From a virus, in IMG/VR virus record IMGVR_UViG_3300037502_004194, positions 1-20,182 of that record: a DNA stretch of 20,182 nt; one strand, given 5' to 3'. The notes under the pieces are model-generated. The model ran no database searches, had not been told where the DNA came from, and saw nothing but the letters and a program-made list of their open reading frames with translations. Below are positions 2,872-20,182 of this stretch, in pieces. The stretch's first letter is position 1. Every line of letters starts with the position of its first letter. A program made the translations under genes and the position numbers.

Positions 2872-3666
2872 ATGAACCAATTAAAAATTTTTAAAAATAC
2901 AGAGTTTGGCGAACTAGGTGTTTTAGTTATAGATGGGAAAGAGTATTTTCCAGCTACAGAATGTGCAAGAATTTTAGGATATACCAATCCACATAAGGCT
3001 ATAAGGGATCATTGTAGGGGGTGCACGAAACGTTCAGTAGGGGTAGTAACAGGTAAAAAAGCTGACGGAAGCGATGCAATTCAAGAAGTAGAGATGAATT
3101 TTATAACAGAAGGAGACTTGTATCGATTAATAATAAGATCCAAACTTCCTACAGCTCAAAAATTTGAGCAATGGATATTTGATGAAGTATTGCCTTCAAT
3201 AAGAAAACATGGAATTTATGCAGCAGATAAGGTAATAGAAGAAATGCTAAATAACCCTGATACTATGATAAAAACACTTCAGGCACTAAAAGAAGAAAGA
3301 AAAAAAATACAAGAGCTTACAGAAAAGGTAGAAGAACAGGACAAGAAACTACAACTTTTTAGAAATCTTCAGCGTTTGAATGAAATGCTTAGGGCTTCTG
3401 ATATTGGTATGTATTATGGAATCACTGCAAAGGAGTTTAACAGGATAATGCAAGATGCAGGAGTTATTAAAAAAGTTGACAACAATTTCTATGGTCGTAA
3501 TTCATATTACGTTATGACAGCTAAATATAGCCATACAAGATACTGTCAAGTTATCACTGATACTTTGAAAAATGGAGTAAAGATTAAAACAAATGTATGG
3601 TTACCTGAATCGTTAGAGTTTATTGACTCCATAATGAAGGAGTATGGATATGAGTTTGATATATAG
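2872..3666 (+). CDS. phage antirepressor, BRO-N plus KilA-C
   Basis: Antirepressors of this family bind DNA or repressors and favour lytic growth. Residues 1-115 match the BRO N-terminal pattern: FGELGVLVIDGKEYFPATEC, ILGYTNPHKAIRDHC, FITEGDLYRLIIRSKLP and the hallmark FEQWIFDEVLPSIRKHG. A coiled-coil linker follows (about 140-175, KEERKKIQELTEKVEEQDKKL), then a KilA-C/ANT-like domain (about 180-264, LNEMLRASDIGMYYGITAKEF through RNSYYVMTAKYS). The length of 264 aa is typical. ATG 2872 was preferred because GGAGGGG lies just upstream; the longer in-frame start at 2824 lies inside the previous gene. It is flanked by other early regulators, as in many Clostridial prophages. Confidence 0.9.
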   Translation: MNQLKIFKNTEFGELGVLVIDGKEYFPATECARILGYTNPHKAIRDHCRGCTKRSVGVVTGKKADGSDAIQEVEMNFITEGDLYRLIIRSKLPTAQKFEQWIFDEVLPSIRKHGIYAADKVIEEMLNNPDTMIKTLQALKEERKKIQELTEKVEEQDKKLQLFRNLQRLNEMLRASDIGMYYGITAKEFNRIMQDAGVIKKVDNNFYGRNSYYVMTAKYSHTRYCQVITDTLKNGVKIKTNVWLPESLEFIDSIMKEYGYEFDI

Positions 3667-3696
3667 GCATTCTCAAAATTAGATGGTGAAAAAATA

Positions 3697-3924
3697 ATGC
3701 AAATTAATCATGAAATAATTCAGAAAAAGCTAAAGGCAAAAGGATGGTCCCAAAACGAACTTGCAAGAAGGATGAATATTCCTAAAGGAACACTTAGTAA
3801 TGTTTTAAGTGGAAGACGTGGTGCAGGTAGAAAAGTAATCTCTGGTCTACTTAGAGCGTTTCCAGAAGAAAAGTTAGAGAATCTCATCTTAAGTGAAAGT
3901 ATAAAAACGAAAAAAGGCAGGTGA
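3697..3924 (+). CDS. small XRE-family (Cro/CI-like) HTH protein
   Basis: A 75-aa protein that is almost entirely one XRE helix-turn-helix: IQKKLKAKGWSQNELARRMN, then IPKGTLSNVLSGRRGAGRKV. The tail is lysine-rich. It has a modest ribosome site (AGATGGTGA) 7 bases before the ATG. It ends in a GTGA overlap with the helicase gene, so its translation is probably coupled to the replication module. It may be a Cro-like or autoregulatory factor for early or replication transcription; no partner repressor is visible in the window. Confidence 0.8.
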   Translation: MQINHEIIQKKLKAKGWSQNELARRMNIPKGTLSNVLSGRRGAGRKVISGLLRAFPEEKLENLILSESIKTKKGR

Positions 3925-5168
3925 TAAAAATAATTCTATACCCACATCAAAGACAAGCTCTAGCACAAACTCAAAATATAAACAGAGTAGCATATTATCT
4001 AGACCTTGGACTTGGGAAGACATTTGTAGGCTCTGAGAAAATGAAACAGTTAAATGCCCCATATAACTTAGTAGTCTGTCAAAAGTCCAAAATCAAAGAC
4101 TGGGCCGAGCATTTTAAAACCTACTACGATTATGAAGTAATAATTTTCAAGAATCAATTTATGGAAAGTATTCCACCCAAAAGCGTTATAATTATCAACT
4201 ATGACCTAGTATGGCGAAGGAAACAATTACAAGAACTAAGAGACTTTACACTGATGCTGGACGAGTCCCAGTATATAAAAAATGAAACATCCAATAGATC
4301 AAAGTTCATCTTAGATTTAAATCCAACTAATGTAATTTTACTATCAGGAACTCCTACAGGCGGAAAATATGAAGAATTATGGTCTCAGTTAAAGCTCTTA
4401 GGTTGGAATATTAGTAAAAAGCTATTCTATAAGCATTATACAATCACAGAAAAACTTGATATGGGTGGATTTCAGATTACCGTTGTAAAGGGTTATAAAA
4501 ATGTAGATAGGCTAAAAGAGAAATTGAAAGAACACGGAGCAGTATTTATGAAAAGTGAAGAAGTCTTTGACCTGCCTGAGCAGATTGAAAATATGGTAAT
4601 AGTGAAAAACACCAAGGAGTACAGGAAGTTTAAAAAAGATAGAGTTATAACTTTGGGTGATGAAACTTTAGTAGGAGATACAGTTTTAACCAAACTATTA
4701 TACCTAAGACAACTATCATCCATATATAATCCTAACAAACATCAAGCCATTAAAGATTTACTTATATCTACAGAAGATAGAGTGGTAGTTTTCTACAACT
4801 TTAAAAAGGAACTTGAAATCATCAAAAACATCTGTGAGACCTTAGAAAAACCTATATCCTACATTAACGGTGATGGTACTGACCTTAAAAACTATGAAAT
4901 TAAAAATAACACTGTAACACTAGTTCAATACCAAGCAGGAGCTTCGGGTGTCAACCTTCAAAAGGCCAATAAAATTATTTATCACAGCTTACCTTTATCC
5001 AGTGAACTATGGATGCAGTCAAAGAAAAGGATACACCGCATAGGCCAAAGTAGGACATGTTTTTATTATTACCTTATAACAGAAAAAAGTGTAGAAGAAA
5101 AAATATTAGAGGTTCTAAAGGAAAGAAGGGATTTCACACTAGATTTATTTGAGAAGGTGGATAAATGA
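3921..5168 (+). CDS. SNF2-type DEAD-like helicase
   Basis: An ATP-dependent DNA translocase of superfamily 2, a usual member of Firmicute phage replication modules. Motifs run in the expected order: YPHQRQAL (Q-like region, 7-14), DLGLGKT (Walker A, 28-34), DESQ (motif II, 114-117, in place of DEAH), LSGTPT (motif III, 141-146) and QSKKRIHRIGQ (motif VI, 366-376). At 415 aa it is a minimal two-lobed motor without accessory domains. The GTG start overlaps the upstream stop, and the AAAGGCAGG-like site is close to it, which implies translational coupling; the exact start is somewhat uncertain. It overlaps the next nuclease gene by ATGA, so helicase and nuclease probably act together on phage DNA. 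Confidence 0.92.
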   Translation: MIKIILYPHQRQALAQTQNINRVAYYLDLGLGKTFVGSEKMKQLNAPYNLVVCQKSKIKDWAEHFKTYYDYEVIIFKNQFMESIPPKSVIIINYDLVWRRKQLQELRDFTLMLDESQYIKNETSNRSKFILDLNPTNVILLSGTPTGGKYEELWSQLKLLGWNISKKLFYKHYTITEKLDMGGFQITVVKGYKNVDRLKEKLKEHGAVFMKSEEVFDLPEQIENMVIVKNTKEYRKFKKDRVITLGDETLVGDTVLTKLLYLRQLSSIYNPNKHQAIKDLLISTEDRVVVFYNFKKELEIIKNICETLEKPISYINGDGTDLKNYEIKNNTVTLVQYQAGASGVNLQKANKIIYHSLPLSSELWMQSKKRIHRIGQSRTCFYYYLITEKSVEEKILEVLKERRDFTLDLFEKVDK

Positions 5169-12218: not shown

Positions 12219-12635
12219 ATGAAAGCTAAGGAATATTTATCGCAGGCTATTTGGCTTGATAAAAAGATTAATAATAAGCTTGAAGAGAAACAAAGGCTAG
12301 AAAGTTTGGCCCAAAAAGTCACAGTGGATATTACACAAGAAAAAGTATGTGGCGGAAAAATAACAAGTCCTATGGAAAATGCTATTGTTAAGCTTATAGA
12401 TTTAAGTCATGAAATAAATGATGATATTGATAAGTTAGTTGATTTAAAAAGAGAAATACTAGAAACTATTAACAAGGTAAATGATATTACTTGCCAAGTT
12501 CTTTTAGAAATGAGATATATATGCGGTAAAAGCTGGGAAGATGTAGCAAGTGCTATGGGTTATGACAGGAGTACAATATTTAGAATTCATGGAAAAGCAT
12601 TAAAAGAAATTCAAAAAATAAAAAGTTGCGACTAA
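12219..12635 (+). CDS. DUF1492 / ArpU-like sigma-70 region 4 regulator
   Basis: A 138-aa protein resembling the phage late-gene activators of the DUF1492/ArpU/RinA type. The N-terminal part is a long helix pair (LDKKINNKLEEKQRLESL, and LIDLSHEINDDIDKLVDLKREI). The C-terminal 40 residues form a sigma-70 region 4-like helix-turn-helix: LEMRYICGKSWEDVASAMGY, then DRSTIFRIHGKALKEI. Proteins at this place usually switch on packaging and structural genes. The promoter at 12642-12671 begins at its own stop codon and is overlapped by three phased 10-bp repeats, an obvious candidate target. The gene starts two bases after the previous one and ends the middle operon. Confidence 0.85.
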   Translation: MKAKEYLSQAIWLDKKINNKLEEKQRLESLAQKVTVDITQEKVCGGKITSPMENAIVKLIDLSHEINDDIDKLVDLKREILETINKVNDITCQVLLEMRYICGKSWEDVASAMGYDRSTIFRIHGKALKEIQKIKSCD

Positions 12636-12671
12636 ATGCGATTGAATGCGACTATTAAAATGTAGTACAAT
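12627..12671 (+). promoter_or_regulatory. sigma-A-like promoter overlapped by three 10-bp repeats
   Basis: TGCGA occurs at 12627, 12637 and 12647, exactly one helical turn apart, each starting a TGCGAYTRAA-like decamer (the last ends in ATT). The promoter TTGAAT (12642-12647), 18-bp spacer, TACAAT (12666-12671) is overlaid by the last two repeats. This suggests direct control, probably by the sigma-like protein encoded immediately upstream. Transcription would start near 12678. Confidence 0.7.
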
Positions 12672-12677
12672 ATAAAG

Positions 12678-12814
12678 TGTAAAGGTATAGAAAAATCAAG
12701 AGTACCATATGCTGTTTGAATAGGCCGAGGTTATATCGATTCGATTCCAAGGAAACGCAGCATTCTTGATAAAAGGGCCCTAGGAGATAAACTCTAAAGG
12801 GCTTTTTCTATACC
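12678..12814 (+). ncRNA. candidate structured RNA 1
   Basis: No reading frame worth reporting lies here, but the segment starts at a good promoter and folds extensively. A 12-bp closing stem pairs GGTATAGAAAAA (12684-12695) with TTTTTCTATACC (12803-12814). Inside, ATCAAGA (12695-12701) pairs with TCTTGAT (12764-12770) and ATGCTG (12709-12714) with CAGCAT (12758-12763), stacked on the right strand. The apical part contains a tRNA T-arm-like TTCGATTCC. A terminator hairpin (GCCCT / AGGGC) with five T closes the 3' end. The closing stem uses the terminator's own T-run, so the two structures compete. I do not recognise a named RNA family. Confidence 0.55.
12777..12807 (+). terminator. terminator of candidate RNA 1
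   Basis: Stem GCCCT / AGGGC with a further GAG / CTC pairing inside, followed by TTTTT. The 19 bases starting at 12798 recur exactly at 13862-13880. Confidence 0.6.
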
Positions 12815-12836
12815 CTGAATAGATGAAAAAATCACC

Positions 12837-13595: not shown

Positions 13596-13725
13596 TAATA
13601 GAGCTCACCACGCCTATTAACAATGCGGACCAGGGTGAGACTTTTAAATAACTTGAGATGAATGCTTAAAGTGGTATTAAAGGCAAAGATGGGGAGTCAC
13701 GAGTGGGCTCCCTGGTATTATTTTA
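13596..13725 (+). ncRNA. candidate structured RNA 2
   Basis: Three successive hairpins follow the promoter. CTCACC (13604-13609) pairs with GGTGAG (13634-13639), with an inner CGC / GCG. ACTTTTAA (13640-13647) pairs with TTAAAGT (13666-13672) with one bulge. GGGAG (13692-13696) pairs with CTCCC (13708-13712) and runs into a TATTATTTT tail, a weak terminator. GC content rises clearly above the surroundings, as often seen for functional RNAs in AT-rich genomes. There is no open frame of note. If the weak terminator is read through, the RNA would end at 13871. I do not recognise a named family. Confidence 0.5.
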
Positions 13726-13839: not shown

Positions 13840-13871
13840 AAGCTCTGAAACATTTGTTTTCAGGGCTTTTT
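13840..13871 (+). terminator. strong Rho-independent terminator
   Basis: AAGCTCTGAAA pairs with TTTTCAGGGCTT (11 bp with one G-U) around a 6-base loop, followed by five T. A near-copy lies at 15545-15578. Confidence 0.9.
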
Positions 13872-13924
13872 CTATACCCTAAAAATCAAATTTATATTAT
13901 TTAATTTGAATTATCGGAGATTCA

Positions 13925-14513: not shown

Positions 14514-15512
14514 ATGAAAGGGTTTTGTGAAAAATGTCATGAAATGACAGAATACTCTATTAAAGAAGTAAAAAAGGAAAAAAATATTAAAGGTAAGAAT
14601 ATTAAATATATAGGGAAAGAAGCTTATTGTAATGAATGTGGAAGTGAAATATTTGTGCCTGAGATTCGTGATCATAATTTGGCTATGTTAGATAAGGCGT
14701 ATAGAGAAAAAGAAGGATTAATTTCAGTACCAGAAATTGAATTAATACTTGAGAAATATGATGTAGGAAAAAGACCTTTATCTCTATTATTAGGTTGGGG
14801 AGAAGGCACTTTAACTAGATATTTAGATGGAGATATTCCTTCAAAACAATATTCTGATATATTAAAAAGACTACTTAGTGATTCTAATTACATGAAAGAA
14901 ATATTAGAACAAAATAAAGATAAAATTACAGATTTAGCATATAGACGTATAATCAATGCTTTAGAAAAAAATGAAATTGCAGTAGAAGCTATAGAACCAG
15001 AAGATAAAATAGATTATGTTGTTAAGTATTTGTTAGCAAATTCTTTAGATATAACACCACTTGCTTTACAAAAACTATTATATTATGCTCAGGGATTTTA
15101 TAAAGCATTTACAGGTGAGTATTTGTTCCATAATAATTGTGAAGCTTGGGTACATGGGCCTGTATATAGGAGCATATATTATAAATATAAAGGTTACGGT
15201 TATAATCCAATTGACGATCCAGATTTTAAATATGAAGAAATTAAATTAACAACAGCAGAAAAAGAGATACTAGATAGTGTTATTGCAAATTTCGGTTGTT
15301 ATAGTGGTAAGGTTTTAGAAAAAATGACTCATATCGAGGAACCTTGGAGAATTACTAGAAAAGGTTTGAGTGACAATGAAAGCTCAGATAGAATTATAAA
15401 TAAAGAATTAATAGCTAAATACTTTGGAGAGATTAAATCTAAATATGGTATGCTTAATATCTCTGATATTAAGGATTACAGTAGGGATCTTTTTAGCAAA
15501 TTATATAATTAG
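14514..15512 (+). CDS. Panacea (SocA/DUF4065) antitoxin with MqsA-like zinc ribbon and HTH
   Basis: Probable antitoxin that neutralises the upstream protein and represses the operon. Three parts are visible. A zinc ribbon has Cys5, Cys8, Cys39 and Cys42 (FCEKCHE, YCNECGSE), like the MqsA N-terminus. An HTH at about 72-107 reads LILEKYDVGKRPLSLLLGWG then EGTLTRYLDGDIPS. A Panacea/SocA domain at about 163-300 includes DYVVKYLLANSLDITPLALQKLLYYAQGFYKAF and AWVHGPVYRSIYYKYKGYG. Panacea domains are known to serve as antitoxin modules against many toxin types. The length of 332 aa is normal for this arrangement. A GGAGG lies before ATG 14514, a stronger site than the toxin's, which favours antitoxin excess. 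Confidence 0.85.
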   Translation: MKGFCEKCHEMTEYSIKEVKKEKNIKGKNIKYIGKEAYCNECGSEIFVPEIRDHNLAMLDKAYREKEGLISVPEIELILEKYDVGKRPLSLLLGWGEGTLTRYLDGDIPSKQYSDILKRLLSDSNYMKEILEQNKDKITDLAYRRIINALEKNEIAVEAIEPEDKIDYVVKYLLANSLDITPLALQKLLYYAQGFYKAFTGEYLFHNNCEAWVHGPVYRSIYYKYKGYGYNPIDDPDFKYEEIKLTTAEKEILDSVIANFGCYSGKVLEKMTHIEEPWRITRKGLSDNESSDRIINKELIAKYFGEIKSKYGMLNISDIKDYSRDLFSKLYN

Positions 15513-15544: not shown

Positions 15545-15578
15545 AAGCTCTGAAACCTTTACTTTTCAGGGCTTTTTT
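15545..15578 (+). terminator. Rho-independent terminator after the antitoxin
   Basis: AAGCTCTGAAA / TTTTCAGGGCTT with a 7-base loop and six T. Both stem arms are identical to those of the terminator at 13840, so the toxin-antitoxin operon is bracketed by the same terminator. Confidence 0.9.
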
Positions 15579-15604
15579 AATACTTAAAATTTGGAGATGG
15601 CAAA

Positions 15605-16240: not shown

Positions 16241-16317
16241 AATTAGCGAAAAGATGAAAGTCAACAGAAATAGCCATTTTAAAGGATTTGCTTTAATGAA
16301 AAGTAGAGGTGTTAAAT

Positions 16318-16830
16318 ATGCTTAAAAAAGAGCAAAAAGAAGAGATTTTAAAACTTCGTAAAAAAGGCTATGGATATCGAAGTATAGCTAGTATTTTAAA
16401 AGTTAAGAGGGATGATGTTAGGGATTTATGTAAAAAGTATGGACTTACTGGATATTTAGGATATGGAGAGTCAATAAAAAACGATATACCTAAAAAGAAA
16501 GAGATACAAAAACAATGCTTACACTGTGGGAAAGAAATAAATACAAAAGAGCGCAGAGGAAGAAAATCAAAGTTCTGCTCTGATAAATGCAGAAGAACTT
16601 GGTGGAATGAAAATCAAGATAAGAAAGACCGTAGAGATACAGCTTGGTATTCATTTATTTGTAAATATTGCGGTAAAGATTTTAAAGCATATGGAAATAA
16701 AAATAGGAAATTCTGCTCTAGAAAATGTGCAAGGGATTATAGGCATGGCTCATATAAAGAAAAAACTGGATATGAAACTAGAGTAGAAAAAGATAGCAAA
16801 AGTAATGAAGGTACCAATTCAGATGAATAG
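16318..16830 (+). CDS. HTH protein with two Cys4 zinc motifs
   Basis: A 170-aa basic protein. Residues 1-45 form a resolvase/sigma-type helix-turn-helix (EILKLRKKGYGYRSIASILK, then VKRDDVRDLCKKYG). Two zinc motifs follow with the same layout: C67-x2-C70...C87-x3-C91 (CLHCGKE, FCSDKCRRTWW) and C115-x2-C118...C133-x3-C137 (CKYCGKD, FCSRKCARDYR). Proteins of this pattern are often auto-labelled 'sigma-70 subunit', which the sequence does not support. Its place between the cos candidate and the methylase would suit a small-terminase-like or regulatory DNA-binding protein. ATG 16318 is favoured because AGAGG is spaced correctly; GTG 16309 would overlap that site. Confidence 0.75.
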   Translation: MLKKEQKEEILKLRKKGYGYRSIASILKVKRDDVRDLCKKYGLTGYLGYGESIKNDIPKKKEIQKQCLHCGKEINTKERRGRKSKFCSDKCRRTWWNENQDKKDRRDTAWYSFICKYCGKDFKAYGNKNRKFCSRKCARDYRHGSYKEKTGYETRVEKDSKSNEGTNSDE

Positions 16831-18111: not shown

Positions 18112-18165
18112 CTTGACTTTACCTGTGTTTAGAGTGATGTATAGACTACACTAAAACGCAGGAGG
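18112..18165 (+). promoter_or_regulatory. hairpin-promoter element, copy 1
   Basis: TTGACT box at 18113, left arm CCTGTGTTT (18122-18130), conserved centre AGAGTGATGTATA, TATAGA at 18140, right arm AAACGCAGG (18154-18162) running into the ribosome site GGAGG (18161-18165). The arms pair along their length with one G-U, extended by AG / CT across a bulged A. Confidence 0.8.
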
Positions 18166-18173
18166 CTTGGAAA

Positions 18174-18617
18174 ATGAAAACTTTTACAACCTATTCAATA
18201 AGATTAGTTAAAGAAAAGGCAGCAAGGTATGATATCGACAAAAAGATAAACTCACCAAAAGAAGTTTGGAAGATAGCAATAGAAATTTTACAACTAAACG
18301 AGATGGCAGAAGAAGTGTTTTCAATAATAACATTAAGTACTAAAAATGAAGTAATAGGTGTTTTTGAAGTAAGTCGAGGAACACTAGACTCAAGCCTTGT
18401 TCATCCAAGGGAAGTATTCAAAAGAGCACTACTTAGCAACGCATCATCAATTATACTACTTCATAACCATCCTTCAGGAGATCCTAAACCCAGTCCAGAG
18501 GATATTAGGATAACTAAAAGATTAAAGAATGCAGGTGAGCTTTTAGGAATACAGGTTTTTGACCATGTAATTATAGGAGATGGATATTATAGTTTAAAAG
18601 AAAAAGGAATGATGTAA
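18174..18617 (+). CDS. RadC-like JAB/MPN-domain protein
   Basis: A 147-aa protein consisting only of the RadC-type JAB (MPN+) domain. The metal-binding motif is intact: HNHPSGDPKPSPED at 97-110 with His97, His99 and Asp110, and an upstream glutamate pair at 46-47. The helix-hairpin-helix domain of chromosomal RadC is absent, as in the plasmid and phage YeeS/YkfG-type relatives. Their role is unsettled; links to repair, anti-restriction and mobile-element maintenance have been proposed. It is the first of four genes each led by the same hairpin-promoter element. ATG 18174 lies 8 bases after GGAGG. Confidence 0.9.
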   Translation: MKTFTTYSIRLVKEKAARYDIDKKINSPKEVWKIAIEILQLNEMAEEVFSIITLSTKNEVIGVFEVSRGTLDSSLVHPREVFKRALLSNASSIILLHNHPSGDPKPSPEDIRITKRLKNAGELLGIQVFDHVIIGDGYYSLKEKGMM

Positions 18618-18641
18618 AGTTTTAGGTTTAATGCTATTTTT

Positions 18642-18698
18642 CTTGACTTATCTGTGTTTTAGAGTGATATATAGTAGTAACAAAAACACAGAAAGGGG
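18642..18698 (+). promoter_or_regulatory. hairpin-promoter element, copy 2
   Basis: TTGACT at 18643, left arm TCTGTGTTTT (18651-18660), centre AGAGTGATATATA, TATAGT at 18670, right arm AAAACACAGA (18683-18692) next to the ribosome site AAAGGGG. The outer C-G pair of the other copies is T-A here, changed on both arms. Confidence 0.8.
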
Positions 18699-18706
18699 AT
18701 TTGAAA

Positions 18707-19024
18707 ATGCAAGCCATATTTATAAGGAAGGCATTTGATTTAGAAGAATTAAAAGCATTAACTTACGAGGATCTAAAAATAGGAAGAAAAGGAATTTCGT
18801 ATGAAGTAACAAAAGAAGTTAATCTTAGCAATAATGAATTTAAAAGGTTTACCCGAAATTTCTTAAAAGACCAACCTTGGATTACAGAGGGTGAAGATGG
18901 AGGAATGAACAAAAACGGTCAGATAAGATGTATAAGAGTCAAAAATAAAGAAACAGGAGAAAAAATTTTAGTAAACTCTGAAGGGTACACATACTCAAGA
19001 TATACTGCATTAGAACTAGATTAA
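18707..19024 (+). CDS. uncharacterised 105-aa mobile-element protein
   Basis: A small soluble protein that I recognise only as a type recurring in Firmicute prophages and conjugative elements (possibly DUF6329-like; I am not certain of the family). It begins MQAIFIRKAFDLEELKAL, has a helical central segment (NNEFKRFTRNFLKDQPWITE) and a strand-rich C-terminus (QIRCIRVKNKETGEKILVNS, then GYTYSRYTALELD). No catalytic motif, membrane segment or Cys cluster is visible. ATG 18707 is 8 bases after AAAGGGG; the in-frame TTG at 18701 is too close to that site. It carries its own upstream element and its own terminator, so it is a complete one-gene unit. Confidence 0.75.
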   Translation: MQAIFIRKAFDLEELKALTYEDLKIGRKGISYEVTKEVNLSNNEFKRFTRNFLKDQPWITEGEDGGMNKNGQIRCIRVKNKETGEKILVNSEGYTYSRYTALELD

Positions 19025-19042
19025 GGCCATTAGGCCTTTTTT
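19023..19042 (+). terminator. short Rho-independent terminator
   Basis: AAGGCC / GGCCTT around loop ATTA, with a six-T run. It begins inside the stop codon of the 105-aa gene and lies 19 bases before the next hairpin-promoter element, so that element must supply its own promoter. Confidence 0.85.
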
Positions 19043-19060
19043 AGTTATGTAAATAAATCC

Positions 19061-19114
19061 CTTGACTTACCTGTGTTTTAGAGTGATGTATATAGTAACA
19101 AAAACACAGGAGGG
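19061..19114 (+). promoter_or_regulatory. hairpin-promoter element, copy 3
   Basis: TTGACT at 19062, left arm CCTGTGTTTT (19070-19079), centre AGAGTGATGTATA, TATAGT at 19091, right arm AAAACACAGG (19101-19110) continuous with the ribosome site AGGAGGG. Perfect 10-bp arms. It follows a terminator directly. Confidence 0.85.
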
Positions 19115-19121
19115 ATTTTAA

Positions 19122-19901
19122 ATGAGTAGAAAGGAACTAGTAAAAAAATTAAGTGAACATTTTGGAGTAAAATCTAAATATCTAGGAGCACCAAGTTTTG
19201 CATACCAAGTGGAGACAGAAGATGAAACTTACACCATTGACAGAGAAGGAAAAATAATAAAATCTTCAGGAGAAGAAGTACAATTTAAACAGTTATTAAA
19301 AGGACCTGAAAAAGTAGCACCTAAGGAATTAGAAACTGAAACAGCTAATAAAATACCAGCTGAAGATATAGTAATTACTTTACCAATGGCAGACCATAGT
19401 GGAAAAACCTTAAGAAATCTAGTTAACATGATTTACAGCAAGCAAGACCTTATTAAAAAAGCATTAGAAATCGAGAAAGATTTAGTAAGAGATGATTTTG
19501 CCATAGGTATTAATGAAGTGAAAATTGAAACCTTAGAAGATTTTAAAACTGCTCTTGAAGATATAGGAAAGAATAGCTGTCCAGGGATTGAATTTAATTT
19601 TTATGATAAAAAATTATATTTTAATTTTTTACAAGGAGAAGAAGAAAATAATGAAAAGATTAAAGTTTATAAACAGTTTATATCCATTCTAAATAAAACT
19701 GCTAAAAAATTAAAGCATGCTTCAGCAAAAGTAAAATCTACAGATAATGAAAAATACACCTTTAGAACCTGGCTCTTAAGGCTGGGAATGATTGGAGATG
19801 AATATAAGATGGCAAGAAAAGAACTACTTAAAAATCTATCGGGCAATGGAGCGTTTAGAAAAGTAAAATCAAAGGTTAAAAGCAATGAAGTAGAAGAATA
19901 A
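19122..19901 (+). CDS. uncharacterised 259-aa protein of the 'virulence-related' type
   Basis: Related proteins in Clostridial prophages and conjugative elements are often labelled 'virulence-related protein' without evidence; I recall the same opening (LSEHFGVKSKYLGAPSFAYQ). Residues 1-50 form a small domain ending in YTIDREGKII. A charged linker follows (about 55-85), then a middle domain with LRNLVNMIYSKQDLIKKALEI and CPGIEFNFYDKKLYFNF. A conserved-looking C-terminus reads YTFRTWLLRLGMIGDEYKMA and then RKELLKNLSGNGAFRK, lysine-rich and helical. No signal peptide or enzyme motif is seen, so it is probably cytoplasmic and may bind nucleic acid. It starts 8 bases after AGGAGGG of element copy 3. 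Confidence 0.8.
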   Translation: MSRKELVKKLSEHFGVKSKYLGAPSFAYQVETEDETYTIDREGKIIKSSGEEVQFKQLLKGPEKVAPKELETETANKIPAEDIVITLPMADHSGKTLRNLVNMIYSKQDLIKKALEIEKDLVRDDFAIGINEVKIETLEDFKTALEDIGKNSCPGIEFNFYDKKLYFNFLQGEEENNEKIKVYKQFISILNKTAKKLKHASAKVKSTDNEKYTFRTWLLRLGMIGDEYKMARKELLKNLSGNGAFRKVKSKVKSNEVEE

Positions 19902-19925
19902 AAACTACAAAAGGGCAATAAAAGT

Positions 19926-19980
19926 CTTGCAATTACCTATGTATAGAGTGATGTATATAATAACAAAAACATAGGGAGGT
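19926..19980 (+). promoter_or_regulatory. hairpin-promoter element, copy 4
   Basis: TTGCAA at 19927, left arm CCTATGT (19936-19942), centre AGAGTGATGTATA, a perfect TATAAT at 19956, right arm ACATAGG (19969-19975) running into GGGAGGT. The central G-C pair of the other copies is A-T here, changed on both arms. The stem is shortest, about 7 bp. Confidence 0.8.
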
Positions 19981-19987
19981 GCAAAGT

Positions 19988-20182
19988 ATGAATAAGTGGC
20001 TTATAAGAGCAACTCTTGAGGGTCTGATTTTTACAGCAAAGGAAAAGCAGTGTGTACTTGGTGATGATGCTAAAGAAGATATAAATAAGCTTAAAGAAGT
20101 TTATGAAGAATTAGTAATGTTTTGGGATTTAGATGAAAGCCTAATAGATGAATTTGAAGCAGTGATAATAAGTAAATTGTAG
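19988..20182 (+). CDS. uncharacterised 64-aa acidic protein
   Basis: A short protein, MNKWLIRATLEGLIFTAKEK followed by an acidic helical part (KEDINKLKEVYEELVMFWDLDESLIDEFEAVIISKL). I recognise no domain; it looks like a small all-helical protein that could act by binding another protein. ATG 19988 is 8 bases after GGGAGGT of element copy 4; the in-frame GTG at 19979 is part of that ribosome site. The gene ends exactly at the window edge, so what follows (a fifth cassette or the large terminase) cannot be seen. Confidence 0.7.
   Translation: MNKWLIRATLEGLIFTAKEKQCVLGDDAKEDINKLKEVYEELVMFWDLDESLIDEFEAVIISKL

Follow-up and report, generated by a model that had tools for sequence, protein, structure and literature searches.

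Four small genes at one end of a phage genome fragment are each preceded by a copy of the same element of about 50 bp, in which a promoter-like core is combined with two inverted arms. We consider it probable that the elements are self-contained switches, each serving a single accessory gene and made of a promoter and a hairpin that would silence read-through RNA at the ribosome-binding site. This reading is drawn from the sequence: from the core of fixed spacing, its position before cargo genes and the integration module, the paired change of the arms, and the predicted occlusion of the ribosome-binding site. Silencing of translation in the cell is what we infer.

The window (the whole stretch of DNA that was analysed) is an entire viral record of 20,182 bp, i.e., a 20-kb fragment. 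By gene content the phage reads as a temperate siphophage. Replication genes are followed by a DUF1492 regulator, an HNH endonuclease, an HTH zinc-finger protein, a ParB/DNA methylase and the four small genes, and the window ends ahead of the terminase genes. Relatives of the third small gene are annotated as amidoligase or virulence-related. The protein encoded at 14514-15512, in which a SocA-like Panacea domain follows an N-terminal regulator-like part, is possibly an antitoxin.

The four elements (Table 1) were detected as one repeat family on the plus strand, exactly where the first-pass annotation had placed them, and each precedes one ORF with a Shine-Dalgarno (SD) sequence. The pattern TAGAGTGATRTATA occurs exactly four times in the record, every time at an element, and the reversed pattern does not occur in it. 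Position-matrix scores of the four copies are 46-54, while the best score in the shuffled window is about 10; the matrix was trained on the same four copies, so these scores are not independent. The arms of element 4 differ from those of element 3 by a double change from G-C to A-U. The right arm had been described as merging with the SD sequence. It does overlap it in copies 1 and 3, but it stops just short of it in copy 2 and only touches its edge in copy 4.

Table 1. Features of the window discussed in the text
Feature	Positions	Strand	Sequence or best match
DUF1492 sigma-region-4-like regulator (PHROG 36)	12219-12635	+	PF07374 2.9e-10; phrog_36 1e-29
Probable late promoter	12627-12671	+	tandem 10-bp-spaced TGCGACT/TGCGATT/TGCGACT, then TACAAT box
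HTH plus treble-clef protein (PHROG 2308)	16309-16827	+	syntenic with elements, not universal
Element 1	18112-18174	+	TTGACT 18113-18118; core TAGAGTGATGTATA 18130-18143; -10 GATGTA 18136-18141
Element 1, left arm	18122-18130	+	CCTGTGTTT; 9 bp with right arm, one G-U
Element 1, right arm	18154-18162	+	AAACGCAGG
Element 1, ribosome site	18159-18165	+	SD CAGGAGG; ATG 18174
Gene 1	18174-18617	+	RadC-like JAB-domain protein, 147 aa; Pfam PF04002 1.9e-44; PHROG 10276
Element 2	18642-18707	+	core TAGAGTGATATATA 18660-18673; SD AAGGGG 18693-18698; ATG 18707
Element 2, left arm	18651-18660	+	TCTGTGTTTT; 10 bp with right arm
Element 2, right arm	18683-18692	+	AAAACACAGA
Gene 2	18707-19024	+	DUF6329-domain protein, 105 aa; PF19854 9e-7; phrog_21303
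Intrinsic terminator, between gene 2 and element 3	19023-19038	+	AAGGCCATTAGGCCTT TTTT
Element 3	19061-19122	+	core TAGAGTGATGTATA 19079-19092; SD CAGGAGG 19107-19113; ATG 19122
Element 3, left arm	19070-19079	+	CCTGTGTTTT; 10 bp with right arm
Element 3, right arm	19101-19110	+	AAAACACAGG
Gene 3	19122-19901	+	PHROG 2443-type protein, 259 aa; phrog_2443 5e-56
Element 4	19926-19988	+	TTGCAA 19927-19932; core TAGAGTGATGTATA 19944-19957; SD GGGAGG 19974-19979; ATG 19988
Element 4, left arm	19936-19942	+	CCTATGT; 7 bp with right arm
Element 4, right arm	19969-19975	+	ACATAGG
Gene 4	19988-20182	+	small protein, 64 aa; precedes terminase genes in relatives

The core consists of TTGMTA, 17 bp and GATWWA, with TAGAGTGAT nearly fixed. 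The information content sits in CTTGMTAT, in TT and in TAGAGTGAT with the next AT; the intervening bases are nearly free. This conservation is partly imposed by our search patterns. Two observations are independent of the patterns. CTTG, which was absent from the query, lies 18 bases ahead of the core in nearly all of 98 copies. Among 88 loci fetched by homology of neighbouring proteins alone, 61 have a copy that scores well beyond the shuffled maximum, in every case on the same strand as the neighbouring gene; one further locus has a copy on the opposite strand. TTGMTA, 17 bp and GATWWA, followed at about 7 bases by a conserved A, correspond to promoter geometry. We therefore treat the core as a putative promoter with a predicted start site. 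Its -10 is probably GATWWA (GATRTA in the window copies), 17 bp from TTGMTA. The boxes TATAGA, TATAGT, TATAGT and TATAAT that had been named instead are 21-23 bp from the TTG box, and their register differs by 2 bp between copies 1-2 and copies 3-4.

A host sigma-A promoter has TTGACA, 16-18 bp and TATAAT. TTGMTA and the 17-bp spacing agree with it, but GATWWA makes a poor match to the sigma-A hexamer, and the 40 sigma-70-like sites found in a scan of the window include none of the four elements. Streptococcus and Mollicutes are not known to have more than a few alternative sigma factors, if any. Therefore, a phage-encoded factor is likely to recognize the core. A literature search with the core motif found no paper containing the core sequence. 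Three candidates for the reader were rejected. A target of DUF1492 would vary with its regulator between phages, as the repeats downstream of the DUF1492 gene do, but the element core is constant. The HTH zinc-finger protein (PHROG 2308) is strongly syntenic with the elements, but as a necessary factor it should accompany them, and it went undetected in 22 of 50 element-bearing records, fragments among them. A sigma factor of the Gardnerella ORF3 type was not detected in the window and is present in some phages only.

The gene of the PHROG 2308 protein (loci L306-L393) adjoins the methylase gene upstream, or lies about 165 bp before an element that leads to a recombinase gene; in some phages it is present twice. 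Variants that have diverged from the element, e.g., TAGAGTTAATATAC and TATATTGATATATA, occur in phages without a standard core nearby (L309 at 11740, L357 at 7471, L379 at 10567, L376 at 10495). They may be useful for finding the recognition factor.

A search for the core with an A-rich tail retrieved 53 viral stretches. We then refer to matches of the pattern CTTG 14 bases before TAGAGTGATNNAT, run on viral contigs and genome contigs; the counts given here are those among the matches listed. A few matches in unrelated bacteria, apparently due to chance, were excluded from the tests. The element is present in hundreds of phage and prophage loci, with hosts from Firmicutes, Mollicutes and Actinobacteria, so the confinement to Clostridial elements implied at first does not hold. 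Hosts among the matches listed include Streptococcus, Gemella, Lachnospiraceae, Veillonella, Acidaminococcus, Bacillus, Acholeplasma (Mollicutes) and Gardnerella (Actinobacteria). Annotated carriers include Streptococcus phi1207.3, Javan phages, Gardnerella phage vB_Gva_AB1 and gut phages labelled Ca. Heliusvirales. At least 358 distinct copies are among the matches listed, and an SD sequence and an ORF follow 333 of the 358. In the same matches, the commonest downstream family is PHROG 2443-like (127 of 332 downstream genes), and 43 of the downstream genes are recombinases. The remaining ones belong to small families, mostly of no assigned function, e.g., DUF6329, DUF7678, DUF7698 and DUF4314.

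In long or complete phage sequences, strong matrix sites were found only ahead of the recombinase and ahead of the cargo genes that lie between methylase and terminase; the scan gave no strong site in front of genes for structural or replication proteins. Another 32 records likewise have few sites each, mostly on one strand. The distal copy stands in front of serine recombinases. In G015, which is closely related to the window phage, five copies precede cargo genes, and the sixth is followed by an excisionase-family gene and then a tyrosine integrase. Thus the element accompanies the integration module whichever type of integrase is present, and the distal copy fits a promoter for this module. 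G015 also has an extra unit, consisting of an element and a 59-aa gene, between the terminator that follows gene 2 and the element ahead of the PHROG 2443-like gene, and precisely this unit is missing from the window. Therefore, cassettes appear to be gained and lost as units, with the element as the boundary. A terminator follows 14% of cargo genes and none in shuffles.

The 5' arm of the hairpin is the otherwise unconserved promoter spacer, and the 3' arm is the leader up to the SD sequence. Pair counting on a MAFFT alignment was out of register, with left arms shifted by one base relative to the fixed core. Instead, we compared own left and right arms with swapped ones; for the pairing score of cargo copies and for the orthologues of the window genes (both below), 0 of 3000-5000 permutations matched as well. 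Duplex energy with own versus swapped leaders gave z = -4.1 for 46 widely different copies and z = -11.6 under looser clustering (n = 178). By class, z was -1.8 for recombinase copies, -6.0 for PHROG 2443-like copies and -6.4 for other cargo. A simple pairing score for cargo copies (n = 90) gave z = 7.2, with controls of 1.9 (mirror), -0.8 (direct repeat) and 0.8 (coding sequence); when the 40 nt upstream were scored against right arms, a small signal appeared that we cannot explain (z = 2.9). For orthologues of the window genes, picked by protein similarity and not by pairing, z was 8.7. They contain double changes such as CTGTGTTT/AAACACAG, CTGTGCTT/AAGCACAG, CTGTACTT/AAGTACAG, CCTATGT/ACATAGG and CTTGTTTTT/AAAAACAAG. 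By the swapped-arm tests and their controls, the pairing is upheld by compensatory change in relatives.

Helices of 7 bp or longer that include three G-C pairs are present in 67 of 189 cargo copies (35%), compared with 11.5% for swapped arms. Integrase and recombinase copies have no excess of such helices (3 of 36, or 8%, vs 6% swapped), and most copies outside the clade of the window have no clear helix. Therefore, forming a hairpin cannot be what the element does in general: judging by these counts, the promoter core would be general and the hairpin confined to a subset of copies. One phage (L068) has two different arm pairs, ATCTCCTTTAG/CTAAAGGAGGT and GTGTCCTTTT/AGGAGGACAC, in each of which the arms match one another. 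In some copies the arm is a plain anti-SD sequence, as in the former pair and in the Gardnerella type, CCTTCTTTAG/CTAAAGGAGG. The pairing z was 7.3 when G-U was scored, 6.0 when A-C was scored and 7.0 with neither; thus RNA is modestly favoured over a DNA dyad. A plain count over all copies gave equal numbers of G-U and A-C mismatches (56 each), probably due to the dominance of weak chance helices. An Rfam search gave no match at the elements.

The first-pass annotation had proposed that read-through RNA folds and hides the ribosome-binding site and that transcripts started inside the element keep it open. Predicted folding bears out the second statement for the window and the first one in part. 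The predicted probability of the SD sequence being unpaired in read-through and internal RNA is, respectively, 0.06-0.15 and 0.73 for copy 1, 0.00-0.01 and 0.84 for copy 3, 0.27-0.42 and 0.58 for copy 2 (partial occlusion), and 0.59 and 0.98 for copy 4 (weak). When the left arms were shuffled as a null, much of the occlusion disappeared for copies 1 and 3 (0.40 and 0.34 unpaired), whereas copies 2 and 4 were little changed (0.56 and 0.63). The fold z is -2.5 for copy 3 and only about -1.1 for copies 2 and 4. A putative promoter in the 5' strand of a hairpin at the ribosome-binding site is thus clear in copies 1 and 3, partly seen in copy 2 and weak in copy 4. The idea of a portable module for unrelated genes is strengthened by the presence of the same element in hundreds of loci and by the covariation of its arms.

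The element would then work as follows. The phage-type promoter TTGMTA/17 bp/GATWWA is predicted to start RNA some 7 bases downstream of the -10, on the A of TA[AC]C. Such RNA would carry only the right arm, and its ribosome-binding site would be open. RNA from upstream promoters would also carry the spacer that separates the -35 from the -10. Since many spacers are complementary to the leader and SD sequence of their own copy, the site would there be folded away and read-through RNA would be little translated. Some cassettes are preceded by a terminator (at 19023 in the window); therefore, read-through would be limited anyway.

Which RNA is silenced depends on what lies upstream. A probable late promoter is located about 5.4 kb upstream of element 1, with several terminators in between. 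In the window and in L052, L066, L069, L099, L133, L142 and L214, at least three tandem repeats with a 10-bp period overlap or follow the DUF1492 stop codon and are followed by a TATAAT-like box. The repeat unit varies by phage: TGCGACT in the window, and TTGGCAT, TTTGCAA, TTCACCC, TGTCAGT and others elsewhere. It differs as if operator and regulator change together. Among 56 regions downstream of DUF1492, 13 score at least 19 of 21, and no shuffled mean reaches that. The DUF1492 gene is present in 44 of 50 element-bearing phage records. These arrays are probably late promoters controlled by DUF1492, which makes the protein a candidate activator of the late operon. As the likely late promoter is upstream, RNA reaching the elements is probably late-operon RNA. 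The cassettes would then be active at some other stage (following entry, in the lysogen or on induction) and quiet late. Probably, they are used outside the late phase and silenced during it, which is the reverse of T4 gene e. The timing suggested initially, with a late internal start and early read-through as in T4, seems less likely.

Several other sequences near the array attracted attention. At 12700-12780, between the probable late promoter and a terminator, the window has conserved CATATGCTG...ATATCGATTCGA...AGGAAACGCAGCATTCTTG, also found in the same place in L142. This segment is possibly a structured leader RNA; it gave no Rfam match and no tRNA. A terminator-like tail, GGGCTTTTTCTATACCCT, has three copies (12798-12819, 13840-13883 and a diverged one at 15545-15589), two of which have an 11-bp stem. 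A weak match to abiF RNA at 13604-13640 (27.3 bits) is below the gathering score of 37.

The most serious alternative is a variant of the preferred explanation in its timing: as in T4 gene e, the element would be a late or middle promoter under a phage factor, and the hairpin would silence early read-through. We regard it as possible but doubtful. The anatomy equals that of T4 gene e, soc and I-TevI (PMC3014915, PMC2988022), and the constancy of the core across hosts of different phyla suggests a phage-encoded factor. However, the element precedes cargo genes and those for integrase or excisionase, but no structural gene; the DUF1492 repeat array, with a unit that varies between phages, is the likely late promoter; and in G015 a terminator after the last cassette parts it from the terminase. 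It is less likely still that the element is an ordinary phage promoter whose arms are incidental, or a by-product of an A-rich leader and a T-rich spacer, with no translational role. Most integrase copies and many cargo copies do keep the core while lacking the hairpin, and copies 2 and 4 occlude weakly. Yet own arms match well above swapped ones, with controls near zero, and composition would serve swapped arms equally; therefore, the excess counts against a by-product of composition.

A DNA operator, in which a dimeric protein binds the inverted repeat and core and represses or activates the promoter, seems improbable to us. Near-palindromic arms do flank a constant centre, and the HTH zinc-finger gene adjoins in many phages. 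Against this, arms differ between copies of one phage while each remains self-complementary, G-U is tolerated slightly more than A-C, and that gene was not detected in the same 22 of 50 records. We give very little credence to the repeats being primarily recombination substrates for the swapping of cargo cassettes. The junction at which the G015 cassette is missing from the window does lie at an element, but the core and CTTG spacing have promoter geometry aimed into the gene, and the arms covary with the leader and SD sequence.

A switch of the preferred kind has a clear precedent. In T4 genes e, soc, 49 and I-TevI, a late promoter lies within the strand that hides the ribosome-binding site of a longer early RNA, and mobE and segB are also listed with a late promoter in the 5' strand of such a hairpin (PMC3014915, PMC2988022). 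The working principle is therefore already known: a promoter in the left strand of the hairpin, upstream RNA silenced and internal RNA open (here by prediction), in several genes. Our case differs in phage lineage, hosts and promoter type, and the T4 late box TATAAATA is not present in the elements. Here, one recognizable element is repeated before cargo and integration genes, read-through RNA is probably late and not early, and promoter and hairpin are separable.

Morons are phage cargo genes with their own promoter and terminator. The cassettes resemble them as single accessory genes between phage modules, with their own promoter-like element and sometimes a terminator. A unit was gained or lost between the window and G015, and only 14% of cargo genes are followed by a terminator. 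The cassettes differ from morons in that one conserved putative promoter is common to all of them and to the integration module, often with a hairpin at the ribosome-binding site. Late-regulator systems of the DUF1492/ArpU/RinA type are represented in most element-bearing records by the DUF1492 gene, but its probable target is a separate array that varies by phage, while the element core is fixed.

Tentatively, and with less confidence than in the switch itself, we suggest a broader picture. A large phage lineage spanning hosts of several phyla may have its own promoter class, TTGMTA-N11-TAGAGTGATWWAT, read by a phage-borne factor and forming one regulon of cargo genes and the integration module. 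In this lineage the free spacer may have repeatedly evolved as antisense to the ribosome-binding site of the same copy, insulating cargo from the surrounding late operon. The fixed core raises the question of its reader protein across Streptococcus, Acholeplasma and Gardnerella. If the interpretation is true, one DNA pattern would reveal the accessory genes in gut and streptococcal phages of this widespread group, independently of protein homology. A phage could also seat genes within another operon and yet time their translation, with the spare bases of the promoter doubly used.
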